64,000 nt of DNA from Ilumatobacter fluminis (GTDB taxonomy: Bacteria > Actinomycetota > Acidimicrobiia > Acidimicrobiales > Ilumatobacteraceae). Below, one piece after another: positions 21,050 to 44,178 of the stretch (positions are counted from its first letter, which is position 1; the number at the start of each line of letters is the position of its first letter). Under the pieces are notes generated by a model. The model made no database searches and was not told where the DNA came from. It saw nothing but the letters and a program-made list of their open reading frames with translations. The position numbers were made by a program, and so were the translations under genes. The stretch spans positions 496,001-560,000 of the forward strand of contig NZ_SOAU01000001.1 in the NCBI RefSeq assembly GCF_004364865.1, written 5' to 3'.

Positions 21050-21083
21050 ATCATCGACGATGATTGAATAGATCATCTATGAT
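21050..21083. promoter_or_regulatory. Two adjacent ATCAT-ATGAT palindromes
   Basis: ATCATCG-A-CGATGAT (21050-21064) is a perfect 7+1+7 inverted repeat, and ATCAT-CT-ATGAT (21072-21083) is a 5+2+5 repeat. Both sit 38-71 bp upstream of the FAH-family start on the minus strand. They match the element at 37905-37916 and are candidate FCD-GntR operators. Confidence 0.55.
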
Positions 21084-21137
21084 GTCAGCCAGCTCGGTAG
21101 TCGTCAAGTCTCGCCGCGATGCGATGAGTTCTCGTCG

Positions 21138-21149
21138 ATCATCGATCAT
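21138..21149. promoter_or_regulatory. Candidate GntR operator, one mismatch from ATCATCGATGAT
   Basis: ATCATCGATCAT lies 40 bp before the monooxygenase-like gene on the plus strand. It differs in one base from the perfect site at 37905. With the pair at 21050-21083 it fills the divergent gap. Confidence 0.45.
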
Positions 21150-21188
21150 CTTGTATTGTGTGTGAACGCACCGAACGAAGGAGTCATC

Positions 21189-21497: not shown

Positions 21498-21592
21498 CGT
21501 TGACGACGACCTCTGGGTCCTGGCCTCGCCGACGAGGTGCGCGTACCGCTTCGACGGCGCAACGGGTCCCACTTCTTCGAAGGGTGTAGCTG

Positions 21593-24176: not shown

Positions 24177-24184
24177 CTAGGCGA

Positions 24185-25130: not shown

Positions 25131-25168
25131 TTAACTTAATCGGTGACCGATCATCGATGAAAGATTAA
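25131..25168. promoter_or_regulatory. Divergent control region with overlapping inverted repeats
   Basis: Three elements overlap. They are ATCGGT-G-ACCGAT (25139-25151, perfect), ATCATCGATGAA (25150-25161, one mismatch from the 12-bp consensus) and flanking TTAATC/GATTAA arms (25136-25141 and 25163-25168). They lie between the GarR-like gene and the sugar-importer operon and probably control both. Confidence 0.5.
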
Positions 25169-25228
25169 AGACGGGTACAGATGCCTGTCGCGATGAACGG
25201 CTCTCGAGGGGAGAGGGGAAGCCCGATC

Positions 25229-26659: not shown

Positions 26660-26705
26660 CGAGAGCTTCGGAGGACGCGTCATCGCTCACTCACCCGCCC
26701 CCACG

Positions 26706-29780: not shown

Positions 29781-30310
29781 CTTCTCCTACTGGCCAGGTG
29801 GCCCATGTGGCAGGCTTCCCGATCAAGCAAGTCGCGATGGTCGTCCGGGACCTCGACCAAGCCGTACGCGCCTATTGGAACCGCCTGGGAGTTGGCCCTT
29901 GGACCTCCTACGTACTTGAACCGCCCCGGCTCAAGGACATGACGTATCACGGGGAACCAGTCGAGTTCGCGATCCGACACGCATTGGCCTGGTCGGGTGA
30001 GACGCAGCTCGAGTTGGTGCAGCCCCTCTACGGACCGAGCATCTTCTCCGACCATCTCGACGTCTGTGGCGAGGGGCAGCACCACCTTGGCATCTTCGTC
30101 GATGACCACCCTGCCGCTATGCAGTCGCTCACCGACTCCGGGTTTCGGTATGTGCAAGGAGCCCGTGGGTTCGGCGCCGAAGGCGATGGGGCGTTCGCCT
30201 ACTTCGAGACCGATGAGCCTGTCGGAACGATCATCGAGGTGATCGAGGCGCCGAAAGTTCGGATCCCACCCGACTTCGTGTATCCCGCCGAGCCGGGGGG
30301 CAACCCGTGA
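29777..30310 (+). CDS. VOC family protein (glyoxalase superfamily)
   Basis: A 177-aa protein with two VOC half-folds. KQVAMVVRDLDQAVRAYW begins the first repeat and HHLGIFVDDHPAAMQSL the second, with Glu residues (QLELVQ, IIEVIE) that can bind metal. It overlaps both neighbours by 4 nt. It resembles Glyoxalase_4 members found in sugar-catabolic operons; an epimerase or isomerase role on a keto-sugar acid is a guess. Confidence 0.75.
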   Translation: MTSPTGQVAHVAGFPIKQVAMVVRDLDQAVRAYWNRLGVGPWTSYVLEPPRLKDMTYHGEPVEFAIRHALAWSGETQLELVQPLYGPSIFSDHLDVCGEGQHHLGIFVDDHPAAMQSLTDSGFRYVQGARGFGAEGDGAFAYFETDEPVGTIIEVIEAPKVRIPPDFVYPAEPGGNP

Positions 30311-31431
30311 GGATCGAGCACATCGAGACCTACGTTGCGCACAACTGGACCTTCGTCGAAGTCACCACAGACACGGGAATAGTCGGCGTTGGCGAGTCGA
30401 CGTTCTTCGGCTTTCCCGAGGCTGCAGCGTCGATCGCCGACGCTTTCGGCCGTTCGCTGCTCGGCACCGATCCGATGCGCGCTGAGCACCACTGGCTTTC
30501 GGCCTATCGAGCCAAGTCCATGCGCGGCATGGCCATCATGGGCGCGATCAGCGCGATCGACCAGGCGCTGTGGGACATACGCGGAAAATACTTCGAAGCG
30601 CCGGTCTGGCAGCTGCTCGGCGGGCAGGTCCGTGACGGCGTCCGAGCCATGCCCGTCCTTCCGACGGGCACCGTCGAGGAGGTCGCCGAGCACGCTACGG
30701 CAGCCGTCCGAGCCGGCTTCAGCGCCATCAAGGTGCTGCTGTTCCAAGACGAACATCACGACCTGCGATACGGCGCCCGGATCGACGACCTCGTACGCCG
30801 AGCCCGGGCAGTTCGAGACGCTGTCGGATGGGACGTCGACATCGCCATCGAGCTGCATCGCAACTTGTCCCCGGGCGACTCGCCGCTCCTGATCAACGAA
30901 CTGGCTTCAATGCGACCATATTTTGTCGAGGATCCGTGTGCGCCCGACAGCGTGATGTCATTCGCCGAGGTGGCATCGAAGGTGTCCGTTCCGATGGCGG
31001 CAGGTGAACGCAACACATCGATCTGGGAGTTTCGCGAGTACCTCGAACACGCACGTGTCGCCTTTGTCCGCCCCGATGTCGGCGTCGCCGGGGGTATCAC
31101 CCATGTGCGCAAGATCTGTGCCATTGCAGAGGCGCATCACGCCGCAATCGCCCCGCACGCGGTCCCGTCCGGACCGGTCGCCACCGCGTCTCAAGTTCAA
31201 CTCGGCGCGTGCACACCCAACTGGGATGCGCAAGAGCACCGCGCCCAAGACGGATCGCCGTGGTCCGATGTCGTCGAAAACGTCGCCCGCATCGAGGACG
31301 GGTACTTCGTCATCCCCGATCTCCCCGGGTTGGGCATCTCGCTCGATCACGAAGGGCTCAAGAACACTCCGCCACTTGACAAGCCCCCGACTGCGCACCT
31401 CAAAGCCGATGGAACGGTGGCACTGCGATGA
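30307..31431 (+). CDS. Enolase-superfamily acid-sugar dehydratase (galactonate dehydratase-like)
   Basis: A 374-aa mandelate racemase/muconate lactonizing enzyme family member. Metal ligands are read as E182, E208 (FVEDPCAP) and E234 (AAGERN). E182-x-H184 replaces the more common D-x-H, and H284 (IAPHAVPSG) matches the second catalytic His of D-galactonate dehydratase; the spacing is almost identical to that enzyme. GTG start with 4-nt overlap on each side. Product: a 2-keto-3-deoxy sugar acid. Confidence 0.85.
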   Translation: MRIEHIETYVAHNWTFVEVTTDTGIVGVGESTFFGFPEAAASIADAFGRSLLGTDPMRAEHHWLSAYRAKSMRGMAIMGAISAIDQALWDIRGKYFEAPVWQLLGGQVRDGVRAMPVLPTGTVEEVAEHATAAVRAGFSAIKVLLFQDEHHDLRYGARIDDLVRRARAVRDAVGWDVDIAIELHRNLSPGDSPLLINELASMRPYFVEDPCAPDSVMSFAEVASKVSVPMAAGERNTSIWEFREYLEHARVAFVRPDVGVAGGITHVRKICAIAEAHHAAIAPHAVPSGPVATASQVQLGACTPNWDAQEHRAQDGSPWSDVVENVARIEDGYFVIPDLPGLGISLDHEGLKNTPPLDKPPTAHLKADGTVALR

Positions 31432-32522
31432 ACGAGCCCGATCGCCGTTGGAACGTGGGCCTGGTCGGACGTGAACTCCTCCGCAGCGCCTATCTGGGCG
31501 ACGACGCGCTCGCACAGCTCGACGCCTTCGCCGACTTCCGCTTCTTCGAGAGCGACCTCGAGTCGAGTTGGGACAAGCCCCCGGAAGCATCTCCGCACGA
31601 CTTGGACGAACTCAAGGTCTTCGTCACCGATCTCGATGCGCTGATCGTTTGCCATGGCTCGCCGAGGATCACCGCCGAGGTCATGGATCGAGCGCCGCAC
31701 CTGAAGCTCATCGGCGAGCTGGAAGGTGACCGATTCGCTCAGCGGATCGACGTCGAAGAGGCGAGCCGACGAGGCGTCGCTGTGGTCGACACGACCCACG
31801 GCTCGTCCTACCCCGTCGCTGAGTGGGCCCTCGGGCTGACGCTCGTCGGACTCAACAATGCCGGCTCGCTGTTCCGTCGCCTCATCTCCGGCGAGGAGAT
31901 CTTCGCGAGCCGAGCGGAACGGGAGGCGGATCCCGTCTATCGCTACGGCGAGCTGACCGGGAAACGGGTGGGCCTGATCGGATGCGGCTACATCGGCCGC
32001 AGGTTGATCGAGCTACTTCGACCGTTTCAGGTCGATCTCTACGTTCACGACCCGTATGTGCCGAACGAGATTGCCGACATTTACGACCTCACCCTGACAT
32101 CGCTCGAACAGGTCCTCACCGGCTGCGATGTGGTGATCTGCCTCGTGCCCCTCACACCGGGAACCAAGGGACTTCTCGGGAGGAAAGAACTCGGGATGCT
32201 CCGCTCCGGCGCCGTGCTCGTCAATGTATCCCGAGGAGCCGTGATCGATACTTCCGCACTGATCGACCGCCTCCGTGAGGGCGATGTGATCGCGTGCCTC
32301 GACGTGTTCGACCCGGAGCCGATCCCGGCCGACTCCCCAGTGCGGTCGATGCACAACGTCTTTCTGACGCCCCACATCGCAGGCGTCACAGCTGCCGGCC
32401 GAATGCGATTCTTCTCACTGATGGTCGACGAGATCGAGCGGGTGTTCCGGGGCCACCGCACGCGTCACGACCTCTCACCTCGCGTGGTGGCGAACCGCAC
32501 CGGAACGCCGCCGGACTCGTGA
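31428..32522 (+). CDS. D-isomer-specific 2-hydroxyacid dehydrogenase
   Basis: A 364-aa NAD-dependent dehydrogenase. VGLIGCGYIGRRLIELLRPF is the nucleotide-binding motif, VNVSRGAVIDTSAL carries the active-site Arg, VFDPEPIPADSP the Glu and LTPHIAGVT the catalytic His. It has extra N-terminal residues compared with the usual 310-330 aa. Overlapping start and stop codons place it firmly in the operon. It could reduce glyoxylate or hydroxypyruvate or oxidise a sugar acid. Confidence 0.88.
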   Translation: MNEPDRRWNVGLVGRELLRSAYLGDDALAQLDAFADFRFFESDLESSWDKPPEASPHDLDELKVFVTDLDALIVCHGSPRITAEVMDRAPHLKLIGELEGDRFAQRIDVEEASRRGVAVVDTTHGSSYPVAEWALGLTLVGLNNAGSLFRRLISGEEIFASRAEREADPVYRYGELTGKRVGLIGCGYIGRRLIELLRPFQVDLYVHDPYVPNEIADIYDLTLTSLEQVLTGCDVVICLVPLTPGTKGLLGRKELGMLRSGAVLVNVSRGAVIDTSALIDRLREGDVIACLDVFDPEPIPADSPVRSMHNVFLTPHIAGVTAAGRMRFFSLMVDEIERVFRGHRTRHDLSPRVVANRTGTPPDS

Positions 32523-33826
32523 ACCAAGGCCCTCGGTTGGTCTCGTCTCCAGAACTTGGCGCGCCACCACCGCCAACGTCCAACGTTCCACATCGTTTGC
32601 CCACAACGAGTTCGCCGTGGTTCGTTCTCACCCTCGCGATCATCGTGGGTGCGCTGACCGGCCCAGGTCAGACGTTCGGCGTATCGGTTTTCGTCGACCA
32701 CATCGTGACCGATCTGGCGCTCAGCCGGTCCGGTGTCGCCACCGCCTACCTCATCGGCACGCTGATCGGTGCCGTCCTGCAACCCGCGGTCGGATCGTTG
32801 GTGGACCGTTTCGGGGTTCGGAAGGCGCAAGCCGTCCTCGGCGTGGCGTTCGGTGTGGCGCTCATGAACATGTCGTACGTCGACGGTTTCGTCTGGCTCG
32901 TGCTCGGATTCGCCGGCATCCGATTCCTCGGCCAGGGGGCGCTCACGATGGTCGCGACGGTCACCGTGCAGGTCGCGTTCAATCGTCGACGTGGCGTCGC
33001 CCTCGGCATCCACACCACGGTCGTCTCGGCACTCATCGCGTGTTCCCCCTTGGTCTTGGCGCTCCTCATCAACGCGTATGGGTGGCGTACGGCATGGCTA
33101 CTGTGCGGATTGGTCGTCGGTGTCACCATCTCACCGATCGCACTCCTGGGGCTTCGTCATATCGGGGCAGCTCGCGAACGCGACACCCCGGTTCAGGACG
33201 TTGGTCGCGTCTGCCGCTCGGCGAAATCCGCAACAGCCTTCACCCGTCGCGAGGCGCTCCGCACGGCCCAATTTTGGATGCTGGCCTCGGTGGTCGGTGC
33301 TTCGGCCCTCATGGTGACGTCGTTCAACTTCCATCAGATCGACCTGCTGGGTCGGGCGGGATTCTCCGAGGGCGAAGCAGCAGCGCTGTTCCTCCCTCAG
33401 GTCATCGGATCATCGATTGCCGGCTTGGCCTTCGGTGTCCTGAGTGACCGGATGGGTGTGCGCTTTCTCCCGGCTGTCGCCATGTTGGCCCTGATCGGCG
33501 CCCAGCTGGTCGCTACGGTCGTTCGACCAGGCGCCTCCGTCGTCGCTTTCGCACTCTTCGTGGGTCTCACCCAGGGTGCCATGCGGGCCTCGTTCGTGAC
33601 CGTCGTACCGGCCTGGTTCGGGATCGCTCACGTCGGGGCGATCTCCGGAGTGCTCACGCTGGTGATGGTCAGCGCCTCCGCCATCGGGCCTCTCGCCATG
33701 ACCTTGCTGGTGGACGCAACCGGCACATACGCGTCAGCGCTGCTCATCCTGCTCATCGTGCCCCTGCTCGCGCTCGCCCTCGCGCTCGGCCCGAATCAGC
33801 CACCGAGGGGTCTATCAAGCACATGA
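32519..33826 (+). CDS. MFS transporter, oxalate/formate antiporter-like
   Basis: A 435-aa carrier with 12 predicted helices. GSLVDRFGVRKAQ between helices 2 and 3 and GVLSDRMGVRFLP in the second half are the MFS loop motifs. The chosen GTG at 32519 overlaps the previous stop; the first helix starts about residue 32. The sequence type is that of monocarboxylate carriers, so it may import or export an acid. Its stop overlaps the RuBisCO-like start. Confidence 0.85.
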   Translation: MNQGPRLVSSPELGAPPPPTSNVPHRLPTTSSPWFVLTLAIIVGALTGPGQTFGVSVFVDHIVTDLALSRSGVATAYLIGTLIGAVLQPAVGSLVDRFGVRKAQAVLGVAFGVALMNMSYVDGFVWLVLGFAGIRFLGQGALTMVATVTVQVAFNRRRGVALGIHTTVVSALIACSPLVLALLINAYGWRTAWLLCGLVVGVTISPIALLGLRHIGAARERDTPVQDVGRVCRSAKSATAFTRREALRTAQFWMLASVVGASALMVTSFNFHQIDLLGRAGFSEGEAAALFLPQVIGSSIAGLAFGVLSDRMGVRFLPAVAMLALIGAQLVATVVRPGASVVAFALFVGLTQGAMRASFVTVVPAWFGIAHVGAISGVLTLVMVSASAIGPLAMTLLVDATGTYASALLILLIVPLLALALALGPNQPPRGLSST

Positions 33827-35079
33827 ACGCCACCACACACTTCCGGACCACCTACCTGATCGAAACCGCTTCCGACCCTCAGGACGCGGCCGAGACGCTC
33901 GCCGGCGAACAGTCTGCTGGAACGTTCGTGCGAGTGCCGGCCGAGACCGACGGCCTTCGCGCGCGACACGGAGCGATCGTTCTCAACGTCGAGGTGCTCG
34001 ACGAGTCGGAGCGCCCTGCGCTACCTGGCGCGATCGTCGCCCGACCCGGGGAGCCGTATCGACGAGCGCGAGTTGAAATCGCCTACCCGGTCGAGAACGT
34101 GGGCGACTCACTTCCACAGCTCCTGACGACGATCGGCGGCAACCTGTTCGAGCTCGCGCCGCTGTCCGGCGTGCGGGTGGTCGACGTCGAGATTCCGGCC
34201 CCGGTGCTCGATAACTGCCCCGGACCTCAGTTCGGTATCGAAGGCACTCGACGCCTTGCAGGCGTCGACGGTCGACCGCTCATCGGCACAATCGTGAAGC
34301 CCAGCGTCGGTCTCACCCCGGCACAGACAGCCGAACTGGTCGAAACGCTCGCTGACGCCGGGCTGGACTTCGTGAAGGACGACGAACTCATCGCAGATCC
34401 CCCCTACTCGCCATTCGTCGACCGAACGGAGGCCGTGCTTGCCGCGCTGCGACGCCACCGGGATCGAAGCGGTCGATCGGTCATGTACGCCGCCAATCTC
34501 ACGGGTGACAGCGACGACATGCGCCGTCATCACGACGCCGTCGTCGACCATGGCGGGAATTGCGTGATGGTCAGCGTGCTCTCGGTCGGACTCGCCGGCC
34601 TGATGGCTCTGAGGAGACACAGCGACCTACCCATCCATGCTCACCGCAATGGATGGGGCGCGCTGACCCGTCACCCACTTCTCGGCTTCGACTTCGACGT
34701 CATGCAGAAGTTCTGGCGGCTCGCTGGTGCCGATCACATCCACGTCAACGGCATTGACAACAAGTTCACCGAATCGAACGAATCAGTCGCAGCGAGCGCC
34801 AGATCCTGCATCGAGCCGCTCGGCGGTCACCCACCGACCGTTCCCGTCTTCTCGTCAGGGCAGTGGGCTGGGACCGCTACCGAAACGCTCGCCGCTGCCG
34901 GGGGTCCGGACCTCATCCATGTCGCCGGCGGCGGCATCATGGCACATCCTGACGGACCCGCAGCCGGAGTCGAAAGCATGCTCGACGCCTGGGAAGCAGC
35001 GCTCGCGGACCGGTCGGTGGCGGAGCACGCGAACGATCGGCCGGCATTGCGACGAGCCTTCGAACGGTTCGGGTCGTGA
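33823..35079 (+). CDS. RuBisCO-like protein (form IV), probable acid-sugar phosphate enzyme
   Basis: A 418-aa RuBisCO large-chain-fold protein. Residues equivalent to RuBisCO are kept: K159 (K175), K185/D187/E188 in VKDDE (carbamylated Lys and Mg ligands), H274-R275 in HAHRNGWG, H307, and loop-6 K314 in GIDNKF. The second Lys of KPK is Ser, and the SGG phosphate motif reads SSGQW, so carboxylation of ribulose bisphosphate is unlikely. No small subunit or phosphoribulokinase is present. Directly upstream of a DUF1537 kinase, it resembles OiaX/OiaT-type 3-oxo-isoapionate-4-phosphate enzymes. Glycolate oxidase genes follow. Confidence 0.88.
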   Translation: MNATTHFRTTYLIETASDPQDAAETLAGEQSAGTFVRVPAETDGLRARHGAIVLNVEVLDESERPALPGAIVARPGEPYRRARVEIAYPVENVGDSLPQLLTTIGGNLFELAPLSGVRVVDVEIPAPVLDNCPGPQFGIEGTRRLAGVDGRPLIGTIVKPSVGLTPAQTAELVETLADAGLDFVKDDELIADPPYSPFVDRTEAVLAALRRHRDRSGRSVMYAANLTGDSDDMRRHHDAVVDHGGNCVMVSVLSVGLAGLMALRRHSDLPIHAHRNGWGALTRHPLLGFDFDVMQKFWRLAGADHIHVNGIDNKFTESNESVAASARSCIEPLGGHPPTVPVFSSGQWAGTATETLAAAGGPDLIHVAGGGIMAHPDGPAAGVESMLDAWEAALADRSVAEHANDRPALRRAFERFGS

Positions 35080-36407
35080 TGGCCGTTCCAAGGGTCGGCT
35101 TCGTCGGCGATGACTTTACCGGGTCGACGGACGCGCTGGAGTCGCTCTATCTCGGTGGAATCGATGCGGAACTCCTTGTCGATGGCACGGAACTCTCGCT
35201 GCCGACGGAGCGCAGAGCGAGCGTCGGGATCGCCACGACGGCTCGGACCTGGTCACCGGAGCAGATGTGGGATCGACTCCCCTCGTCCTTTGCCGCGCTG
35301 CGAGATGCTGGAGCAGACCTCTGCCACTACAAGGTCTGCTCAACCTTCGATTCGTCTCCAACGATCGGCAGCATCGGAACCGCGATCGAGATAGGAATCG
35401 AAGTCCTCGATGCCGACGTGGTGCCCGTCGTCATAGGCACCCCACCACTTGGCAGAGCGGTGGTCTACGGCAACTTGTTCGCGAGAGCGAACGGTGCGAT
35501 GTACCGGATCGACCGTCATCCCACGATGAGTCGACATCCCGTCACGCCGATGGACGAATCGGACCTGCGACGGCACCTCGAACGTCAGACGGCGAGAACA
35601 GTCGGCTCCGTCGACATCGATGTGCTCTCACGCGGCGTCGAGGTGGCACTCGAAGCGATCGATGACGAGCGACGCTCCGGTCGCAACATCATCGTTTTCG
35701 ACACCGTCGACGACGACCACCTCCGCACCATTGGCCGCGTCCTGCTCCACCTCGCACGTCGGACCCGGACCTTCGTCGTCGGATCGTCGGCGGTCGAGCG
35801 AGCGGTCGGTCTTGCGTCGGGGGCCTCAGCGCTGCCATCGCCCGTTCCGCCCGTTGATCAGATACTCGTGATGTCAGGTAGCGCGTCGCCGGTGACAGCG
35901 TCGCAGATCGAGTACGCACGATCCATCGGCTATTGCACTATCCGCGTGGAGCCAACCGCCCTCGACATCGAGTCGCTCCTCGACCTGGGTCGAGCTGCGT
36001 GGAGTCGCGGCAATAGCGTCATCTACTATTCGGCTCTTGGGCCCGACGACCCCTCATTACGCTCCTCATCTGGCACCCGCGGGCCCGACATCTCAACTCG
36101 ACTCGGCGACGCGCAGGCCGACATCGTTCGTCGATTCCTCGACTCCATCGAGGTCAGCCGACTGTGCGTCAGCGGAGGGGACACCTGCGGTCGGGTCGTA
36201 CGCGACCTAGGGCTGAACTCACTCAGAATCCTTGCATCGGTCGAGCCGGGCGGACCGCTCTGCTTGGCATCGTCTGCGCACTTAGGGACCGATGGACTCA
36301 CGGTCGCGCTCAAAGGCGGACAGGTCGGATCAGACGACTACTTCGAGCTCGTGCGACGAGGCGGTCCGACGACGTCGCCGGCATTAACGCTGAAGGACTC
36401 ACCATGA
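35079..36407 (+). CDS. Four-carbon acid-sugar kinase family protein (DUF1537)
   Basis: A 442-aa kinase with FVGDDFTGSTDALESL at the N-terminus (acid-binding Asp pair) and LCVSGGDTCGRVVRDLG in the C-terminal nucleotide domain. ATG 35079 shares its first base with the preceding stop; GTG 35076 is an alternative. It is distinct from the DUF1537 protein at 11280 (DDDPTGTQT form). Next to a RuBisCO-like protein it fits an OiaK-like 3-oxo-isoapionate kinase that makes the phosphate used by the RuBisCO-like enzyme. Confidence 0.85.
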   Translation: MAVPRVGFVGDDFTGSTDALESLYLGGIDAELLVDGTELSLPTERRASVGIATTARTWSPEQMWDRLPSSFAALRDAGADLCHYKVCSTFDSSPTIGSIGTAIEIGIEVLDADVVPVVIGTPPLGRAVVYGNLFARANGAMYRIDRHPTMSRHPVTPMDESDLRRHLERQTARTVGSVDIDVLSRGVEVALEAIDDERRSGRNIIVFDTVDDDHLRTIGRVLLHLARRTRTFVVGSSAVERAVGLASGASALPSPVPPVDQILVMSGSASPVTASQIEYARSIGYCTIRVEPTALDIESLLDLGRAAWSRGNSVIYYSALGPDDPSLRSSSGTRGPDISTRLGDAQADIVRRFLDSIEVSRLCVSGGDTCGRVVRDLGLNSLRILASVEPGGPLCLASSAHLGTDGLTVALKGGQVGSDDYFELVRRGGPTTSPALTLKDSP

Positions 36408-37081
36408 ACCAAACAACGCGCACGATCGGGGTGCTTCACACCGGGGCGTTTCTCACGTCGAACTTCAACGAGTTGTTTGCCGAGATCCTCCCTGACTACG
36501 CAGTTGCGAATGTCGTCGACGAGTCGCTCATCCAGCGCACGATCGAAGCTGGCCATCTGACGGCACGGACTCGACGACGAGTCGCACAGCACCTGTTCTG
36601 CCTGGAAGATCTCGGTGTCGAAGCGCTCCTGGTCACGTGCTCGTCGATCGGGCCGGCCGTGGACGCGACGAGGCCAATGCTCGAGGTGCCCGCGCTTCGA
36701 GTCGATGCAGCCATGGCAGCGCGTGCAGTGTCGATCGGCCCTCGCATCGGTGTACTCGCCACGCTCGAGACAACGCTCGCGCCGACGGCTACCATGATTC
36801 GAGAACAGGCCACAGCGGTTGGCGCTGACGTCACCGTCGACGAGCGAGTGTGCGAAGGTGCCTACGAAGCTGTCAAGTCCGGCGATGTGGAGCGTCATGA
36901 CCTGATCGTCTCGCAAGGTCTGGAGGATCTCGCTTCCAAGGTGGACGTGGTGGTGCTCTCCCAGGCGTCGATGGCGCGGTCGGCCGAGTTGCTGGAATCG
37001 CTCGGCAACCTGCCTCCGATCCTGACCAGCCCGCGCCTTGGTGTCGAAGCGCTCCGAGACCTGTTGACCGAGGCACCGTAG
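36404..37081 (+). CDS. Asp/Glu/hydantoin racemase-fold protein with one catalytic Cys
   Basis: A 225-aa protein of the Asp/Glu racemase superfamily. VTCSS at residues 78-81 supplies the first Cys. The second motif, normally G-C-T, reads VVVLSQASMA (residues 182-190), so the second Cys is missing. Single-Cys relatives act as decarboxylases, isomerases or one-base enzymes. ATG 36404 overlaps the kinase stop by 4 nt. It is the last gene of the operon. Its part in the pathway is unknown. Confidence 0.75.
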   Translation: MNQTTRTIGVLHTGAFLTSNFNELFAEILPDYAVANVVDESLIQRTIEAGHLTARTRRRVAQHLFCLEDLGVEALLVTCSSIGPAVDATRPMLEVPALRVDAAMAARAVSIGPRIGVLATLETTLAPTATMIREQATAVGADVTVDERVCEGAYEAVKSGDVERHDLIVSQGLEDLASKVDVVVLSQASMARSAELLESLGNLPPILTSPRLGVEALRDLLTEAP

Positions 37082-37154
37082 GCGGTAGTGACCAGGGGCG
37101 ATCCTGCAGTGGTGTATGGCATCCAGATGTCCAGACCCATGCGTCGACGATCGA

Positions 37155-37874
37155 TCAACCCCTGGGCTGGTTCGTGGATGCGTCGGTGAGCGCCCCAATG
37201 GGCGACGGCGGTGCGCTCCTGAGGCTCTCGTTGATCACGCCCTCGGCTCTCAAGAGGTGGCGTTCGAGCAGCCCAACAGCCAGGTCCGAGTCGCGCTGCT
37301 CGATTGCGTCGACGATGCCGGCGTGGTCCCCGGATGGGCCGTGTCGCGTCGAGTCGGCCAGGCTCAGCTGGGTCATCAACAACAGGGTTTCGTCACCGAC
37401 CCGATCCCATGCCTCCAACACGCGAGAGTATCCACTGGCTTCGACGATCGACCGATGGAGGGCCATGTCGGCGAGTCCGATGTCGAGGTGTCGTTCGCAG
37501 CGCTGAGCTTGCTCCATGTCGTCGAGCCGGCCGCGAAGCGCAGCGACCAGTGGGCCAACCTGCTCCTGACCGTCGACCACGTGTCGAAGGGCGACGCACT
37601 CGAGATGGCGACGTAGCGCATAGATCTCAGAGACGTCTCGCACGGTGATCGTCGTTACCCAACAGCCTCGCCGTGGTTGCATCGTCACCAGGCCGCGACC
37701 TGCCAGATGAGTCAGGGCGTCTCGTACCGGGCCTCTGCTCGTGCCGAGTTCAGTGGCCAGTTGAGATTCGACGAGCCGCTGTCCCGGCTGCAGGTCGCCT
37801 GAGAGGATCCGGGCACGAATTGCCAATGCGGCAGCCTTTCCGAGATCCCGATGTCGAACCGTCGCCGTTGCCAC
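37155..37874 (-). CDS. GntR-family transcriptional regulator, FCD type
   Basis: A 239-aa regulator (GTG start at 37874). The helix-turn-helix region is LATELGTSRGPVRDALTHLA, and the FCD domain has DMALHRSIVEASGY as its metal motif. It is convergent to the long operon and divergent from malate synthase. A perfect ATCATCGATGAT palindrome lies 31-42 bp upstream, so autoregulation together with control of the glc genes is likely. Confidence 0.87.
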   Translation of the reverse strand: MATATVRHRDLGKAAALAIRARILSGDLQPGQRLVESQLATELGTSRGPVRDALTHLAGRGLVTMQPRRGCWVTTITVRDVSEIYALRRHLECVALRHVVDGQEQVGPLVAALRGRLDDMEQAQRCERHLDIGLADMALHRSIVEASGYSRVLEAWDRVGDETLLLMTQLSLADSTRHGPSGDHAGIVDAIEQRDSDLAVGLLERHLLRAEGVINESLRSAPPSPIGALTDASTNQPRG

Positions 37875-37894
37875 CGGAACATCGTAGCCAAGAC

Positions 37895-37928
37895 TTGACT
37901 CTCGATCATCGATGATCCATTGTTAACA
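37895..37928 (+). promoter_or_regulatory. Promoter and perfect ATCATCGATGAT operator before malate synthase
   Basis: TTGACT (37895-37900) is a -35-like box. The perfect 14-bp palindrome GATCATCGATGATC (37904-37917) lies in the spacer and a TGTTAACA palindrome (37921-37928) directly precedes the ATG at 37932. No ribosome-binding site is seen, so a leaderless or near-leaderless transcript is likely. Confidence 0.6.
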
Positions 37929-37931
37929 GTC

Positions 37932-40118
37932 ATGAATGAATTCCATCTTGCGTCGACCGGCTCACGAGTCGAGCGAGGAACGTTGCAGGTCGACCGAACG
38001 CTCGTGGAGTTCGTCGAGAACGAGGTGATTACGAACACTGACCTGGACGCAGCAACCGTCTGGTCGGCTCTTGAGACGCTTGCCAGCGAGTTCGGACCTC
38101 GCAATCGCCGTTTGCTCGAACGCCGCGAGGAGTTGCAGCGTCAGATCGACGACTGGTACGACGCAAATGGAACCGACCCCGATCCAGCGTTCTTGGCGGA
38201 GATCGGCTACTCCGTTGCCGCCCCAGATCCGTTCAGCATCGAAACGGATGGTGTCGACGACGAGATCGCCCGCATCGCCGGCCCGCAACTCGTCGTTCCA
38301 GCCGACAACGCTCGCTATGCGCTGAATGCGGCGAATGCGAGATGGGGGTCGCTCTATGACGCGCTGTACGGCACCGACGTCCTTGGCGACCCCCCGCCTC
38401 CAGGGCCCTATGATCCGCAACGAGGAGCGCGTGTGGTCGAGTGGGCGAAGCAGTTCCTCGACTCGGCGGCACCGCTGAACCAAGGATCCCACCAGTCTGT
38501 TGTCGGCTACAGGGTTCGGAACGGCAAGCTCGTCGCCGATCTCGACATGGGGTCGGCAACGATGCTCAGTCCTTCGGCAGAGCTCGTGGGCTGGAACGGG
38601 GATCCGGAGGCGCCCTCGACGCTGGTGGTTCGTCATCATGGCCTGCTGCTCGAGCTCGTCATCGACCGGTCTCACCACGTCGGAGCGGAGGATCGCGCTG
38701 GGGTGTCCGACGTGCGGCTCGAGTCAGCGGTGACCACGATCATCGACCTCGAGGACTCCGTCGCCGCCGTCGACGGCGAGGACAAGGTCGTTGGCTACCG
38801 CAACTGGCTGGGGCTGCTGCGGCGAACTCTCACCGCCGAGGTCTCGAAGGCCGGCCGGACGGCGACCCGTCGCCTCCATGGCGACCGGCAGCTCACCACC
38901 GCGCAGGGAAGTCTGCCGATGCGAATGACGTCCGTGTTGATGGTGCGCAACGTGGGACATCTCATGACGACCCCGGCAGTCGTCGATGAGCACGGGCGGG
39001 AGATCCCAGAGGGGCTTCTCGACGCACTGGTCACGGTGTTGTGCGCGCGCGAGGATGCCCTGGGGCGGAGCGACCACCCGAATAGTGCGACCGGTTCCAT
39101 CTACGTCGTCAAACCCAAGATGCACGGTCCTGAGGAAGTTGCGTTCGCTGTCGACGTCTTCACCTTCATTGAGCGCGCCCTGGGGCTACCGGAGAACACG
39201 GTCAAGCTCGGCATCATGGACGAGGAGCGCCGGACGTCGGTGAATCTTTCTGCGTGCATCTGGGCCGCCCGGCGCAGGGTCGCCTTCATCAACACGGGCT
39301 TCTTGGACCGTACCGGCGACGAGATCCACACCTGTATGCGTGCTGGACCTGTCATGCGCAAGGCGGATATGAAGACCTCGACTTGGCTGCCGGCGTACGA
39401 AGACTGGAATATTCGCACCGGGGTCGAGTGCGGTTTGATCGGGCGAGCGCAGATCGGCAAGGGCATGTGGGCGGCGCCAGATCTGATGGCCGACATGCTG
39501 GATCAGAAGATCGCTCACCCGCTCGCCGGAGCGAGCTGCGCATGGGTCCCATCACCGACGGCTGCGACCTTGCACGCAACGCACTATCACCGTGTCGACG
39601 TTGCACAGCGTCAGCGCGATCTCGCAGGTCGGCTCGACGAATGCCAAGCACGCGCCGAACTCGGTTCGCTCCTCGTTGCGCCGGTTGTGGCGCGACCCGA
39701 CTGGAGCGACGACGAGCGGCTCGCCGAACTCAGGAACAACCTCCAGGGGATCCTTGGCTACGTCGTGCGCTGGGTCGACCAAGGCGTGGGATGCTCGAAG
39801 GTACCCGACATCGGCGACGTCGGACTCATGGAGGATCGAGCAACGTGCCGGATCTCATCACAGCACGTTGCGAACTGGCTCGCACACGGCGTGGTGTCCA
39901 TCGATGAGGTCGACGATGCGTTGCAAGCAGTGGCGGCCCTCGTCGATCGACAGAACGCCGACGATCCGACCTACCGCCCGATGGCGCCGAATCTCGACGG
40001 AGTTGCGTTCCGGGCAGCACGCGAACTCGTCGTCGCCGGCGGAAGTCAGCCGAGCGGCTACACGGAACCGATCCTCCATCGATACCGCCACGAACGCAAG
40101 AAGGAGGCGGGCTCGTGA
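37932..40118 (+). CDS. glcB: Malate synthase G
   Basis: A 728-aa enzyme that condenses glyoxylate and acetyl-CoA to malate. Its length matches the G isoform (about 723 aa in E. coli). TTIIDLEDSVAAVDGEDKV is a glyoxylate/Mg region, and LMVRNVGHLMT and SIYVVKPKMHGPEEV are conserved blocks of the class. LGIMDEERRTSVNL holds the second acid pair. It heads the glycolate gene set and takes up glyoxylate formed by GlcDEF. The ATG is followed by a second, out-of-frame ATG 4 nt later. Confidence 0.95.
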   Translation: MNEFHLASTGSRVERGTLQVDRTLVEFVENEVITNTDLDAATVWSALETLASEFGPRNRRLLERREELQRQIDDWYDANGTDPDPAFLAEIGYSVAAPDPFSIETDGVDDEIARIAGPQLVVPADNARYALNAANARWGSLYDALYGTDVLGDPPPPGPYDPQRGARVVEWAKQFLDSAAPLNQGSHQSVVGYRVRNGKLVADLDMGSATMLSPSAELVGWNGDPEAPSTLVVRHHGLLLELVIDRSHHVGAEDRAGVSDVRLESAVTTIIDLEDSVAAVDGEDKVVGYRNWLGLLRRTLTAEVSKAGRTATRRLHGDRQLTTAQGSLPMRMTSVLMVRNVGHLMTTPAVVDEHGREIPEGLLDALVTVLCAREDALGRSDHPNSATGSIYVVKPKMHGPEEVAFAVDVFTFIERALGLPENTVKLGIMDEERRTSVNLSACIWAARRRVAFINTGFLDRTGDEIHTCMRAGPVMRKADMKTSTWLPAYEDWNIRTGVECGLIGRAQIGKGMWAAPDLMADMLDQKIAHPLAGASCAWVPSPTAATLHATHYHRVDVAQRQRDLAGRLDECQARAELGSLLVAPVVARPDWSDDERLAELRNNLQGILGYVVRWVDQGVGCSKVPDIGDVGLMEDRATCRISSQHVANWLAHGVVSIDEVDDALQAVAALVDRQNADDPTYRPMAPNLDGVAFRAARELVVAGGSQPSGYTEPILHRYRHERKKEAGS

Positions 40119-40537
40119 GTCGGCCCACTCGAGCTCTCGTCGATGCAGTACTCGCAGGAGTTCGCTCCCACGCCCAATCGGTCGAGGTCCAGCCGCTCTG
40201 CATCGCGATCGTCGACGCCGGGGCGCACCTCGTTGCCGCAGAACGATGGGACGGAGCGGCCCCCGGCCGCTTCGACGTCGCCGTGGGCAAGGCCCGCGCT
40301 GCAGTACTACTCGGTGTCTCGTCTCGTCGGCTCGGCGAGATGGCGATCGAGCGCCCACACTTCCTCGTCGGTCTCACCAGCGCGCTCGGCCCCATCGTTC
40401 CAGTCGCTGGCGGGGTGCTGATCGTCGACGGCGACACGCCCGTTGGTGCGATCGGTATATCAGGCGACACCTCCGACAATGACGAACTCGCCGCCATCGC
40501 TGGCATCCGCGCTGCCGGTCTCGAGGTCGGTCTGTAG
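40115..40537 (+). CDS. glcG: GlcG/HbpS family heme-degrading or accessory protein
   Basis: A 140-aa protein of the DUF336 (GlcG/HbpS) family. The core IAIVDAGAHLVAAERWDGA and the glycine-rich GGVLIVDGDTPVGAIGISG are typical. The GTG start overlaps the malate synthase stop by 4 nt. GlcG is a common companion of glycolate oxidase genes, with an unclear role; related proteins bind heme. Confidence 0.85.
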   Translation: MSRPTRALVDAVLAGVRSHAQSVEVQPLCIAIVDAGAHLVAAERWDGAAPGRFDVAVGKARAAVLLGVSSRRLGEMAIERPHFLVGLTSALGPIVPVAGGVLIVDGDTPVGAIGISGDTSDNDELAAIAGIRAAGLEVGL

Positions 40538-40548
40538 TTCGACCCGTC

Positions 40549-42027
40549 ATGCGACTGCTCTCCCGACCTCGAATGAGACGGTCCGGCTCTCGCGGCGTCG
40601 ACCGGGTCGAGCGCGCCCTCCTGACAGTCTTGCGACCTGATCAAGTGAAGACCGACGATGCGTCACTGCGCGTGGCAGCTCGCGATGCGTCGCTGGTCCG
40701 TCCGACCCCGCCCGCCGTCGTCTGTCTCGCAGAGTCGCATGATGACGTCGTCGCGATGATGACCATCGCTGCGGATCTCGGTGTTCCCGTTGTTCCCCGC
40801 GGTGCTGGAACGGGGCTCGCGGGTGGTGCCGTACCATCTGGCGGTGCGATCGTCGTGTCGACAGCACGAATGAACAGGGTCCTGGACGTGGACCGTGACA
40901 ACGGATCAGCACGCGTCCAGCCCGGCGTCGTAAATCTGGACCTCGACCGGCTCCTCAGGTCCACCGGATTCCACTTCTCGCCCGACCCGTCGAGCCAACA
41001 GGTCTGCACGCTCGGGGGCAATGTTGCGAACAACTCCGGTGGTCCTCACTGCCTCGCATACGGTGTGACGAGCGCTCACGTGCTGGCGGTCCGAGTGGTG
41101 CTCGTCGGCGGGGAAGTCGTCGACCTCGGCGGAGATGACCCTGAGCCTTGCGGGCTGGATCTGCGAGGTGCCTTCATCGGCGGCGAAGGCACGTTGGGGA
41201 TCGCTACCGAGATCACGGTCGCGATCACCCCGAACCCGCCGGTCACTCGCACGCTCCTTCTGGCGTACGCAGACATGACCAGTGCAGCCAACACGGTCAG
41301 TTCGATCATCGCCGCCGGCATCGTCCCTGCCGCAATGGAGGTGATGGACCAGGGGATTGTCAGGGCAATCGAGCAGTACGTCGGAGCCGGTTATCCGACC
41401 GACGCCGGAGCCGTCCTGCTCGTCGAAGTCGAGGGACTCGAGGGCGGTGTCGCTGCCAACGAAGTAGCGATTCGGGGTATCGCCGAGCGCATGGGGGCCA
41501 CGTCGATCAGAACAGCCGTCGACGAGGCCGAGCGTGCTCTCCTCTGGAAAGGGCGCAAGACAGCGTTTGGTGCCGTCGCGAATATCGCACCCGACTACTA
41601 CCTTCACGACACGGTGGTTCCGCGGGCCCGCCTCGCCTCGGTGCTCGACGAGGTCGCCTCGATCGGCGTGCGTCATCGACTGATGATCGTCAACGTGTTC
41701 CACGCAGGTGACGGCAACCTCCACCCTCTGATCGTCTTCGATCGGCGGGATCCGGGCGTTCTCGAGCGCGTGCACGAGGCGGGAGCTGACATCGTCCGAG
41801 CATCACTGGCCGCCGGAGGCGTGTTGTCCGGCGAACACGGCATCGGGATCGAGAAGCAGGAGTTCATGAGTGCGATGTTCACCGACGACGATCTCGATCA
41901 TCAGAACCGCCTTCGCAGATCGTTCGATCCGCTCGGTCTTTCGAATCCTGGGAAGGTTCTGCCCAGTAGCCACTCGTGCGCGGACATTCAGCAACTGAGC
42001 TCCGTTCCAGCAGGGGTGTGGTTGTGA
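40549..42027 (+). CDS. glcD: Glycolate oxidase FAD-linked subunit GlcD
   Basis: A 492-aa flavoprotein. The FAD_binding_4 motif is VPRGAGTGLAGGAVPSGG, followed by CTLGGNVANNSGG, and the C-terminal FAD-oxidase domain carries NVFHAGDGNLHP with catalytic His residues and GVLSGEHGIGIEKQ. It oxidises glycolate to glyoxylate with GlcE and GlcF. It overlaps glcE by 4 nt. D-lactate dehydrogenases share the fold, but the glcE-glcF-glcB context supports glycolate. Confidence 0.92.
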   Translation: MRLLSRPRMRRSGSRGVDRVERALLTVLRPDQVKTDDASLRVAARDASLVRPTPPAVVCLAESHDDVVAMMTIAADLGVPVVPRGAGTGLAGGAVPSGGAIVVSTARMNRVLDVDRDNGSARVQPGVVNLDLDRLLRSTGFHFSPDPSSQQVCTLGGNVANNSGGPHCLAYGVTSAHVLAVRVVLVGGEVVDLGGDDPEPCGLDLRGAFIGGEGTLGIATEITVAITPNPPVTRTLLLAYADMTSAANTVSSIIAAGIVPAAMEVMDQGIVRAIEQYVGAGYPTDAGAVLLVEVEGLEGGVAANEVAIRGIAERMGATSIRTAVDEAERALLWKGRKTAFGAVANIAPDYYLHDTVVPRARLASVLDEVASIGVRHRLMIVNVFHAGDGNLHPLIVFDRRDPGVLERVHEAGADIVRASLAAGGVLSGEHGIGIEKQEFMSAMFTDDDLDHQNRLRRSFDPLGLSNPGKVLPSSHSCADIQQLSSVPAGVWL

Positions 42028-42941
42028 GCGTCGCTTCCGATCCGCTTCTCCACGAGTTCGCCGAGCTCGTCGGGGACTCCGGGCCGGTCGCCGTCGAGGG
42101 CTGTCGGACTCGATGGCGGATCGGCGGTGATGCTGCTGGTTCGGCACGCTTGGTCTCTGCTCCGACAGGGATTGTTGCCCACGAGCCCTCCGAGATGACC
42201 GTCCGGGTCCGAGCGGGAACCTCGGTGGCCGAGTTGCATCACGAGCTCGCGGCCTCTGGCCAGTGCACAGCGCTTCCTGACCGCGGCGGCACAGTGGGCG
42301 GCGCTGTCGTCGTCGGCGAGAACGATCTGCGTCTCCGGCGTGTCGGCAGGCTCCGCGATGCGGTTCTGCAGGTGCGCTATGTGTCCGCGCAAGGTCGGAT
42401 GATCACCGGTGGGGGAGCGACCGTCAAGAACGTCAGCGGCTACGACCTCTGCCGGTTGATCACTGGCTCGCTCGGGACACTCGGCCTTGTCGCTGAGGTG
42501 ACGCTCCGGACGGTTCCGGTCGCCGAGGAATGCCGCTGGGTGGTCTTGGACGACTCCGACCCCTTCGCGATCGCACAAGGTTGGCAGCCATACTCTGCGG
42601 TCTTGTGGGACGGTGAGCGCACATGGGTGTGTCTTGAGGGCGCTGCGGCTGATGTTGCCGATGCCCGGACCAGACTCCGGGCGACCGGGCGCTGCGCCGA
42701 CGTCGGCGGGCCACCAGACCTACCCCCCTGTCGCAACTCGATCGCACCCGGCCGGGTCAGAGCGATCCACTCGATCGCGTGTGGTCAGTTCGTGGCAGCG
42801 GTCGGGCTCGGCCTCGTGTTCACCACCCACCCACTTCCGAGGTCGCCGAGATCATCGTCGTTCGAGCGGCTGTCCATGCGGGTTAAGAACGAGTTCGATC
42901 CCGAGGGCCGATTGAATCCAGGCAGGCGGCCGGGAGCCTGA
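42024..42941 (+). CDS. glcE: Glycolate oxidase FAD-binding subunit GlcE
   Basis: A 305-aa shorter FAD_binding_4 protein. Seen: VRAGTSVAELHHELAASGQC and GGGATVKNVSGYDLCRLITGSLG, the GlcE signature. The usual N-terminal glycine-rich loop is only partly recognisable (TRWRIGGDAAG), as is normal in GlcE. GTG 42024 overlaps the glcD stop. It forms the oxidase with GlcD and GlcF. About 50 residues shorter than the E. coli protein. Confidence 0.88.
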   Translation: MSVASDPLLHEFAELVGDSGPVAVEGCRTRWRIGGDAAGSARLVSAPTGIVAHEPSEMTVRVRAGTSVAELHHELAASGQCTALPDRGGTVGGAVVVGENDLRLRRVGRLRDAVLQVRYVSAQGRMITGGGATVKNVSGYDLCRLITGSLGTLGLVAEVTLRTVPVAEECRWVVLDDSDPFAIAQGWQPYSAVLWDGERTWVCLEGAAADVADARTRLRATGRCADVGGPPDLPPCRNSIAPGRVRAIHSIACGQFVAAVGLGLVFTTHPLPRSPRSSSFERLSMRVKNEFDPEGRLNPGRRPGA

Positions 42942-42942
42942 C

Positions 42943-44178
42943 ATGGATCTACGAATCGAGCCAGAAGCCCTCAATGCCTGTGTTCAATGCGGGCTCTGCC
43001 TCTCGTCGTGCCCGACGTATCGCGTAACCGGCGATGAGACGCAGTCGCCTCGCGGACGCATCAACCTGATGCGATCTGTCCAAGACGACGATCAACCGGT
43101 CACGTCAGCGATCGTCGAAGCGTTCGATACCTGTGTGCAGTGTCGCGGGTGTGAGCCGGCGTGCCCGTCGGGCGTTCCGTACGGCGATCTGATCGGCGCC
43201 ACCCGCACCACCATTGCGTCCGAAGTCTCGAAGCCGTCGCCGCTGCTCAGGATCGGACTCGCTGCCCTTGTTCGTCCGCGTCTCCTGCGAGCAGTATCGA
43301 CCGTGACCGCGTACGCACAGCGTCTCCGGCTCGTTCCGAGCCGGCTCGGTGTCCCCCGATTGGCTCTCCACCGAACTCCACGACGCTCGACCGGGAGCGA
43401 TGTCGTTCTGTTCACGGGATGTGTCATGGATGCCTGGCAGCGGCACATTCACGACGCTGCGCAGCGCAGTCTCGAACGGGCGGGGTTCGCAGTCTTCGTG
43501 AGCGGCGACCTGGCCCCGTGCTGCGGAGCTCTTCATCATCACGCCGGACTGCACGACCGCGCCGTGCAACTTGCCAAACACGTTGTCGAAGCGCTGCCGA
43601 GCGATGTTCCGATCGTCGTGGACTCGGCTGGTTGCGGAGCGGCCATGAAGGCGTTCGGATCCCTTCTTCCGGACGATCCGAGTGCGGCGAACTTCGCCCG
43701 GCGCGTCGTCGACATCAACGAGTTTCTCGCCGAGCATCTCGACGCTGTGGAAGGCCTCGGCGACGTCGACCCACTGGAAATCTCGGTCGCTATTCAGGAC
43801 GCGTGCCATCTCCGCCACGTCCAAGGTGTCCACCAAGCGACGAGGACGTTGCTGCAGCCAGTCGTGCGAGAACTCCGGGAGCTAGATGACCTCGGGCTGT
43901 GTTGCGGCGCCGGCGGGGCATTCAGCGTGATGCAACCCGAACTCTCTCGCCGAATCCGCGACCTCAAGCTTGCCTCCATCAGGCGTGCCGACGCAGACAT
44001 CGTCGTCAGTGCCAACCCCGGGTGTTCCGGTCACCTGGCTACAGCCGGAGTCGAAGTGTGTCATCCCATTGAACTGTTCGACCGGGCGCTGTCGAGAGGG
44101 TCCAGCAGGTCTGGAGCGGCCCGGGCGTTGCTCGACGAGGCGAACCCAAGACTTGACAATCAGAACAAGGAGCAATGA
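42943..44178 (+). CDS. glcF: Glycolate oxidase iron-sulfur subunit GlcF
   Basis: A 411-aa electron-transfer subunit. Two 4Fe-4S ferredoxin motifs, CVQCGLCLSSCP and CVQCRGCEPACP, lie in the first 80 residues. Two cysteine-rich CCG domains follow (APCCGALHHHAG and GLCCGAGGAFSVM). It passes electrons from GlcDE to the respiratory chain at the membrane. ATG 42943 starts one base after the glcE stop. Confidence 0.93.
   Translation: MDLRIEPEALNACVQCGLCLSSCPTYRVTGDETQSPRGRINLMRSVQDDDQPVTSAIVEAFDTCVQCRGCEPACPSGVPYGDLIGATRTTIASEVSKPSPLLRIGLAALVRPRLLRAVSTVTAYAQRLRLVPSRLGVPRLALHRTPRRSTGSDVVLFTGCVMDAWQRHIHDAAQRSLERAGFAVFVSGDLAPCCGALHHHAGLHDRAVQLAKHVVEALPSDVPIVVDSAGCGAAMKAFGSLLPDDPSAANFARRVVDINEFLAEHLDAVEGLGDVDPLEISVAIQDACHLRHVQGVHQATRTLLQPVVRELRELDDLGLCCGAGGAFSVMQPELSRRIRDLKLASIRRADADIVVSANPGCSGHLATAGVEVCHPIELFDRALSRGSSRSGAARALLDEANPRLDNQNKEQ

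Follow-up and report, generated by a model that had tools for sequence, protein, structure and literature searches.

What does a bacterium degrade with a RuBisCO-like protein (RLP) whose gene is coupled to that of a DUF1537 kinase and lies upstream of genes for glycolate oxidation, and is the RLP itself the source of the glycolate? These genes lie in a stretch of 64,000 nucleotides from Ilumatobacter fluminis (contig NZ_SOAU01000001.1, positions 496,001 to 560,000; hereafter the window), which has a G+C content of 65.7% and belongs to a genome of 4,775,416 bases in one contig. On balance, we favor the view that the locus is an inducible catabolic regulon for a sugar or sugar acid, in which the RLP and the kinase would yield 3-phosphoglycerate and a small 2-hydroxy acid and the glc genes would burn glycolate. 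The substrate is probably a branched sugar acid.

The RLP gene is part of a run of eight plus-strand genes, given here by window position.

28527..29780, plus strand: Gfo/Idh/MocA dehydrogenase, first of the eight overlapping genes (profile matches)
29777..30310, plus strand: VOC (Glyoxalase_4) protein (Pfam)
30307..31431, plus strand: enolase-superfamily acid-sugar dehydratase-like protein (galactonate dehydratase model, 288 bits against a cut-off of 311)
31428..32522, plus strand: D-2-hydroxyacid dehydrogenase (profile matches), in one proposal weighed below the first half of a split ApnO
32519..33826, plus strand: MFS transporter, nearest to lactate and oxalate/formate transporters
33823..35079, plus strand: RLP of 418 amino acids, OiaX/OiaT-type family (Pfam RuBisCO_large, E 2.4e-67)
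35076..36407, plus strand: DUF1537 sugar-acid kinase (Pfam SBD_N and NBD_C; nearest the OiaK model)
36404..37081, plus strand: Asp/Glu-racemase-fold protein (Pfam Asp_Glu_race, PF01177)

All eight genes, from 28527 to 37081, are linked by seven 4-bp ATGA/GTGA stop/start overlaps (at 29777, 30307, 31428, 32519, 33823, 35076 and 36404); the overlap into the MFS gene takes GTG at 32519 as the start, as the overlap itself suggests, whereas the searches used a start at 32585. The original prediction, made from the sequence, had described translational coupling of the RLP, kinase and racemase-fold genes, and these overlaps bear it out and carry it further upstream, to 28527. The three genes and the glcB-glcG-glcD-glcE-glcF genes were likewise recovered where they had been placed, by open frames and by Pfam and NCBIfam matches.

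The best NCBIfam model for the RLP was OiaX (NF042437; 456.4 bits), far ahead of the two MtnW models PRK09549 (202.3 bits, cut-off 409) and TIGR03332 (165.3 bits, cut-off 513.6). An MtnW identity, named beforehand as a finding that would undo the prediction, was rejected on these scores, both far below their cut-offs. Its closest solved relative was the RuBisCO-like protein of PDB 3NWR (E 1.2e-124). Its sequence places the RLP in a widespread RLP–kinase family and outside MtnW. In a contig scan for relatives, at least 579 of at least 594 pattern matches encoded one (the best 80 of the at least 594 were retained), and plasmid matches came from 366 records, all below 60% identity.

The active-site residues were compared using the residue numbers and roles of RuBisCO. 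In the RLP, E29, N107, K159, K185 and D187 correspond to RuBisCO E60, N123, K175, K201 and D203, and E188, H274, R275, H307 and K314 to E204, H294, R295, H327 and K334; the deviations are a Ser at the K177 equivalent and a Phe at the W66 equivalent. The carbamylation lysine and magnesium-binding acids are thus retained as predicted, with K185, D187 and E188 aligned to K201, D203 and E204. The SGG phosphate motif, claimed to be lost, is only partly so: its equivalent reads SSG, since the two Gly found in 16 rows that were identified as RuBisCO from their KPKLG motif correspond to S345 and G346 (S344 was placed by neighborhood), the first of these Gly being changed to S345. The N123 and H327 equivalents are retained in 101 of 105 family rows, including the window, and are lost solely in four OiaX rows (L150-L152, annotated OiaX, and L002, over the OiaX model cut-off). 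These four carry D, G and Q at E60, N123 and H327, where the window RLP has E29, N107 and H307, and the three positions offer a simple residue test parting the OiaX rows from the other sampled family rows. Because the RuBisCO residues are retained, their roles in RuBisCO favor an RLP that transfers a carboxyl group and hydrolyzes a C–C bond in a substrate with a single phosphate, and the pattern favors a cleavage that yields 3-phosphoglycerate together with a small acid, for example glycolate. The residues that we infer to mark an OiaT-type enzyme, namely those of RuBisCO-type carboxylation and hydrolysis, are found in the window RLP.

A tree was built by a quick method from 110 rows (104 family rows, five outgroup rows and 3NWR), with support given by the Shimodaira–Hasegawa-like approximate likelihood ratio test (SH-aLRT); 12 loci without a usable RLP frame were left out (L006, L010, L011, L030, L031, L085, L124, L125, L127, L158, L160 and L161). 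The window RLP fell in a seven-row set with haloarchaeal RLPs (support 99), nested in a 13-row set with Chloroflexota, Bacteroidota and Verrucomicrobiota rows (support 95). Four loci of the larger set (L043, L046, L084 and L096) have ApsD-, ApnL- and ApnO-type genes. Here ApnO-type denotes the "phosphogluconate dehydrogenase C-terminal" protein accompanying ApnL and OiaX, which we take to be ApnO, and ApsD-type denotes genes beside ApnL that are annotated Gfo/Idh/MocA and are presumably ApsD; ApnL was named by its NCBIfam model, matched under its cut-off in L037. The four OiaX rows formed a separate long-branch clade (support 100), apart from the window in the best tree, and 3NWR grouped with VOC-RLP-kinase-TRAP plasmid loci and not with the haloarchaeal set of the window. 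The kinase was nearest to the OiaK model (NF042436; 368.7 bits), with both DUF1537 Pfam domains present.

Downstream of the eight genes, the window holds the following features.

37155..37874, minus strand: GntR/FCD regulator, divergent from glcB (profile matches)
37904..37917, no strand: perfect 14-bp palindrome GATCATCGATGATC in the 45-bp GntR-glcB gap, the sole exact copy in the genome
37920..40118, plus strand: malate synthase G (glcB), 1086.8 bits and above the PRK02999 cut-off of 565
40115..40537, plus strand: GlcG/HbpS-like protein (profile match)
40549..44178, plus strand: GlcD-, GlcE- and GlcF-like glycolate/2-hydroxyacid oxidase subunits (NCBIfam)

The glc genes had been described as next in line and co-directional; their order and strand stand, but the minus-strand GntR/FCD gene, unmentioned in that description, separates the two groups. 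With a second model, TIGR01345, the malate synthase scored 977.6 bits, just below the cut-off of 989.15. Two other reasons for having these genes were rejected. The glyoxylate shunt does not explain the malate synthase, since isocitrate lyase had no match in the genome in a search that matched 8 of 14 control genomes, and RuBisCO with phosphoglycolate salvage does not explain the glycolate, since the sole RuBisCO_large match in the genome is the window RLP. With neither an isocitrate lyase nor a second RuBisCO matched in the genome, the malate synthase fits glyoxylate that comes from catabolism. Glyoxylate carboligase gave a best match of 374.3 bits in the genome, against a cut-off of 711.2 (all 14 control genomes matched, one over the cut-off). 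Malate synthase acting after glycolate oxidation is an established means of consuming glycolate, as an excerpt of PMC7486775 describes.

The palindrome recurs further upstream, among additional genes of the presumed regulon.

25149..25162, no strand: palindrome copy with two mismatches, before the ABC genes heading the RLP-holding run
21049..21150, no strand: three palindrome copies with one or two mismatches, between the FAH gene and the divergent ABM-like/GntR genes
25181..28486, plus strand: ABC importer, a solute-binding protein and two permeases (permeases named by eye), the co-directional head of the RLP-holding run
17782..25057, mixed strands: MBL hydrolase, ALDH and FAH hydrolase (minus); ABM-like protein, GntR, amidohydrolase and Gfo/Idh (plus); HIBADH-type dehydrogenase (minus)

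Counting up to two mismatches, the window holds five sites (the perfect one and copies at 21049, 21071, 21137 and 25149, the copy at 21049 overlapping the FAH gene start) against 0.49 expected, and none of 100 shuffles reached five. All five lie within three short divergent intergenic stretches or at their margins, with three in FAH/ABM-like-GntR, one in HIBADH/ABC and one in GntR/glcB; the genome-wide density predicts 0.21 sites for the 17 kb holding all five, the stretches having been picked after the sites were seen. Because the operator-like motif recurs at both blocks beyond expectation, the RLP genes and the glc genes probably share one regulon. The perfect palindrome that had been noted between the two gene groups was found, but its place in the GntR-glcB gap assigns it to the glc side. 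Scans for sigma-70 promoters and terminators in the sequence gave no more matches than in shuffles.

The ABC importer genes precede the eight coupled genes at a 40-bp gap, for which reason the two probably form one operon. No ATPase was seen beside the importer among the listed frames, so that an ABC transporter ATP-binding protein, of multi-sugar type by eye, encoded at 44182-45345 and beginning three bases past glcF, may serve it. A small ABM-like protein (antibiotic-biosynthesis-type monooxygenase, named by eye) is encoded at 21189-21497, divergent from the FAH gene and adjoining the three operator-like copies.

In the proposed pathway, the substrate would be imported by the ABC or MFS transporter, and the Gfo/Idh, D-2-hydroxyacid dehydrogenase, VOC and racemase-fold proteins would oxidize or rearrange it to a 2-hydroxy-3-oxo sugar acid. 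The DUF1537 kinase would phosphorylate the terminal carbon of this acid, and the RLP, acting via an enediolate and carboxyl transfer, would cleave the phosphate, releasing 3-phosphoglycerate and a small 2-hydroxy acid that would most likely be glycolate. Finally, GlcDEF would oxidize glycolate to glyoxylate, malate synthase G would condense glyoxylate with acetyl-CoA, and the GntR/FCD regulators at GATCATCGATGATC operators would switch on both blocks. The steps from the kinase onward are supported by homology, residues and context, from which we infer the reactions of the kinase and the RLP. The complete route to malate envisaged by the original prediction therefore stands from the kinase onward only, its upstream part being unsupported.

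Loci from other genomes bear on this pathway. The gene content of 84 long loci (at least 14 kb, from the 104 family rows) was read with tblastn seeds inside each fetched locus at E up to 1e-7 or 1e-10, a search that misses more distant genes; the annotated plasmid loci considered in addition were hand-picked from match lists and are not a random sample. The kinase was present in 82 of the 84, an ApnO-type gene in 40, SDR types in 25, a racemase-fold gene in 20 and ApnL in 17 (all with an ApnO-type gene), and there were ApsD-type genes in 17, enolase and/or pyruvate kinase genes in seven and window-type VOC genes in five. A Haloterrigena locus (L153) has an RLP-kinase-AKR-pyk-eno run with an ApnO-type gene next to it, and Bradyrhizobium sp. 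Ghvi (L107) carries RLP, kinase, SDR, pyk, glcD, glcE and glcF genes on the same strand in about 11 kb, glcF being cut by the locus end. The neighbors in both loci fit 3-phosphoglycerate as a product and, in L107, glycolate too. Genes for triose-phosphate isomerase and RpiB are present in one OiaX locus (L152) but were not found in the stretches fetched for two other OiaX plasmid loci (L150 and L151).

The window VOC protein is 34-38% identical to VOC proteins encoded directly 5' of the RLP in four plasmid loci. The plasmid clusters L155, L156, L159 and L162 have the order LacI-TRAP-VOC-RLP-kinase, uninterrupted by any annotated dehydrogenase gene, and may represent a minimal RLP route. In haloarchaea, proteins of 268-281 amino acids are encoded directly 5' of the RLP (L153 9118-9924, L154 9110-9916 and L034 11094-11939); these possible candidate partners had no Pfam match at 0.001.

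Several observations weigh against the proposed pathway. The RLP and the kinase score below the curated cut-offs of their nearest models (456.4 against 700 bits for OiaX and 368.7 against 700 bits for OiaK), and a tree in which the window RLP and the four OiaX rows were forced together was not rejected by the approximately unbiased (AU) test (p-AU 0.452), so the tree does not settle the relation to OiaX. "Glycolate oxidase", as the downstream enzyme had been called, is a family-level name, because GlcD (453.8 bits, TIGR00387 cut-off 567.9) and GlcF (259.9 bits, cut-off 333) match their families but remain below the NCBIfam equivalog cut-offs. The enolase-family gene has no clear step, and the palindrome is not exclusive to the cluster, since 60 places genome-wide match it with up to two mismatches. 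Of the 84 long loci, those of the window and L107 alone showed a full glcDEF trio near the RLP, three others giving weak single matches. Additionally, an FAH branch, discussed below, could be the glycolate source instead of the RLP.

The upstream steps are where the locus departs from known pathways. The original prediction had drawn a parallel with D-apionate catabolism, which fails at ApnO: an ApnO-type query had no match in the genome while all five control genomes matched, and ApnL (NF049900) had no match in the genome at E 0.01 while five of five control genomes or records matched, none of them over the model cut-off of 750. The D-apionate route via ApnO and ApnL was rejected on this whole-genome search with its positive controls, and the known route seems not to be encoded in this genome. 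With neither an ApnO-type nor an ApnL gene found in the genome, the best fit is the accompanying suggestion that the substrate differs or that the route is a new variant. In a genus mate (G153, locus L002), a stretch of about 6 kb holds the gene of an RLP that exceeds the OiaX cut-off alongside ApnO-type and ApnL genes, which points to two RLP strategies in one genus.

The racemase-fold protein is a possible participant in such upstream chemistry. Its fold is supported by PF01177 and by an AlphaFold model with a predicted local distance difference test (pLDDT) score of 95.1. The best VIA match of the model was 3s81 (Z 22.1, root-mean-square deviation 2.6, 218 aligned), an ordinary Asp/Glu racemase fold, and the structure search returned ordinary Asp/Glu racemases and indicated no function; arylmalonate decarboxylase (3eis and 2vlb) was among the 50 Foldseek matches listed and absent from the 50 VIA matches listed. 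Asp/Glu racemases of the two-Cys type have two conserved catalytic Cys. Among 20 aligned RLP-linked members there is one invariant Cys column only, the Cys of TCSS, and the presumed place of the second Cys, set with no two-Cys racemase in the alignment, reads Gln-Ala-Ser or Gln-Gly-Ser. A second racemase-fold paralogue, 35% identical, is encoded elsewhere in the genome (G000:C1:416534-417157).

Among the 84 long loci, the racemase-fold partner (RAC) tends to occur without ApnO: 17 of its 20 loci lack an ApnO-type gene, with both genes in 3, RAC only in 17, ApnO only in 37 and neither in 27 (Fisher p 0.0008, which ignores relatedness). RAC presence changes at least 11 times across the RLP tree, and in differing pairs ApnO is mostly opposite to RAC (4.1 against 0.1 of 8, with no difference in 3.8). 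However, a tree-aware sign test was not significant (median p 0.125, range 0.031-0.625), so the exclusion is a tendency only, and because three Acidobacteria loci hold RAC and ApnO together, RAC is not simply an ApnO substitute.

These data bear most directly on the alternative of a D-apiose/D-apionate route with a split ApnO, which we regard as unlikely. Here the Gfo/Idh protein would oxidize apiose, another lactonase would stand in for ApnL, the D-2-hydroxyacid dehydrogenase would oxidize C2 of apionate, the VOC or racemase-fold protein would shift the carboxyl to give 3-oxo-isoapionate, and the kinase and RLP would act as OiaK and OiaT. Our presumptive ApsD genes, which adjoin ApnL, are annotated Gfo/Idh/MocA, but the protein so labeled in L037 shares only 28% identity, over 195 residues, with the Gfo/Idh of the window. 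In L032, the nearest RLP relative by tree path, a D-2-hydroxyacid dehydrogenase gene lies directly before the RLP gene, and no ApnO-type match was found in this 25-kb locus. The repeated changes of RAC, mostly opposite to ApnO, and the apiosidase-domain gene that RAC adjoins on a Croceibacterium plasmid also suit this alternative, whereas the sign test, the three Acidobacteria loci with both genes and the enolase-family gene, which it leaves unexplained, speak against it.

The enolase-family gene would find a place if glycolate came from the presumably co-regulated FAH branch, as a non-phosphorylative route for sugar acids in which a lactonase, the enolase-family dehydratase, a dehydrogenase and the FAH hydrolase would lead to pyruvate and glycolate or lactate. 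The best NCBIfam model of the FAH-family protein is 2,4-didehydro-3-deoxy-L-rhamnonate hydrolase, an enzyme that also appears, with acylpyruvases, among its PDB relatives; an amidohydrolase and the dehydratase are present, and three operator-like copies lie at the FAH start. However, the model match is weak (92 bits against a cut-off of 500), and the RLP, kinase and racemase-fold protein would be left without a role though their genes overlap in the same run as the dehydratase gene. We hold this source of glycolate to be decidedly unlikely.

A hamamelose-type pathway proceeds through a 3-keto pentitol intermediate. As the explanation of this locus it is more doubtful still: the RLP would be an oxygenase splitting a 3-keto pentitol phosphate to 3-phosphoglycerate and glycolate. 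In Ochrobactrum anthropi, an RLP gene lies beside hamamelose genes and the route has 3-phosphoglycerate and glycolate as its end products, according to an excerpt of PMC8914248; RLP oxygenation is cited in an excerpt of PMC10176493, and the RuBisCO residues are retained in the window RLP. However, the loci of SDR/hydrolase type, presumably the likeliest to be of hamamelose type, form a clade apart from the window.

That the RLP is a plain OiaX-like decarboxylase yielding tetrulose phosphate and CO2 is the least probable of these alternatives, for although OiaX is its best NCBIfam model (456 bits) and a window-OiaX clade was not rejected, the cut-off of 700 is missed, the OiaX rows have D, G and Q where the window has E, N and H, and window positions 17-46 kb, to which the search was confined, hold no RpiB match, unlike L152.

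Returning to the proposed regulon with its 3-phosphoglycerate-forming RLP, the RAC loci of other genomes offer hints about substrates. A GH127 gene cluster occurs in 7 of the 20 loci with RAC and in 1 of the 69 remaining loci (p 7.8e-5, which ignores relatedness and was picked from about 60 gene clusters tested; the GH127 domain was Pfam-checked in two of eight genes). The aceric acid hydrolase BT1003 is a member of the GH127 family, according to an excerpt of PMC10850190. On the Croceibacterium plasmid (L161), RAC adjoins an apiosidase-domain gene and an MFS gene, with an L-rhamnose mutarotase gene about 7.5 kb on; elsewhere on the plasmid the RLP gene adjoins a gene annotated as beta-L-arabinofuranosidase domain-containing. 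The GH127 and apiosidase neighbors may point to rhamnogalacturonan-II sugars in those RAC loci. No such glycosidase was seen by eye among the frames at 18-46 kb of the window, where no family search was made for one.

A tentative extension, possible but rather doubtful, is that the RLP–DUF1537 pair serves several branched acid sugars as an exchangeable "back end", the racemase-fold and VOC proteins being new front-end isomerases that replace ApnO. The window would then be one such route with a new substrate, and aceric acid of rhamnogalacturonan-II would be possible in the GH127/GH2/GH78 racemase-fold loci without ApnO. If so, the structure of aceric acid and our own chemical reasoning suggest that aldose-ketose isomerization would give a 3-oxo-isoapionate analogue, from which the kinase and RLP would form 3-phosphoglycerate and lactate. 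No paper on aceric acid catabolic enzymes was found, judging by titles and the beginnings of abstracts.

Taken together, the window cluster is real, large and probably co-regulated; its RLP is putatively of the 3-phosphoglycerate-forming type, and it lacks any known upstream enzyme. Excerpts of PMC8914248 and PMC6302742 indicate that routes from an RLP to 3-phosphoglycerate and glycolate had been published before, so the cluster is not new in category; the latter describes decarboxylating and transcarboxylating/hydrolyzing RLPs that act on 3-oxo-isoapionate-4-phosphate. Reactions are known for just a few RuBisCO-like proteins, according to an excerpt of PMC10176493, and by title and the beginning of the abstract none of the literature matches listed joins an RLP, a four-carbon acid sugar kinase and glycolate in one route. 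Because the usual partner enzyme of such pathways was not found, novelty may lie in the starting sugar or in the upstream steps. An eight-gene coupled operon without a known upstream enzyme, together with an operator-like motif common to the glycolate/glyoxylate genes, makes discovery of the substrate directly testable. The recurrent pairing of RLP and kinase with a one-Cys racemase-fold or VOC protein in several phyla suggests that uncharacterized enzymes supply the RLP with its substrates, perhaps in the use of rare pectin sugars.

Among known systems, OiaT of Xanthobacter autotrophicus is reportedly a 3-oxo-isoapionate-4-phosphate transcarboxylase/hydrolase (Carter et al., 2018, as cited in PMC6302742). 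Its products are reportedly 3-phosphoglycerate and glycolate. The window resembles OiaT in coupling an RLP that retains the RuBisCO catalytic residues to an OiaK-like DUF1537 kinase, and RLPs of Xanthobacteraceae (Ancylobacter, as stand-ins for X. autotrophicus) belong to the same family and come from loci that hold ApnO-type and ApnL genes; the window differs in that its genome has no ApnO-type or ApnL match and in its extra coupled genes. OiaX (NF042437) is the best model match and shares the family tree, but the window RLP falls below its cut-off and differs at the E60, N123 and H327 equivalents. PDB 3NWR is the closest solved relative, yet it falls with the VOC-RLP-kinase-TRAP plasmid loci. 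Finally, the RLP of the D-hamamelose pathway in Ochrobactrum anthropi is said to be an oxygenase (Kim et al., 2018, as cited in PMC8914248 and PMC10176493); likened by description and not by sequence, it shares with the window an RLP in a branched-sugar cluster and 3-phosphoglycerate and glycolate as the end products, which in the window are those predicted.

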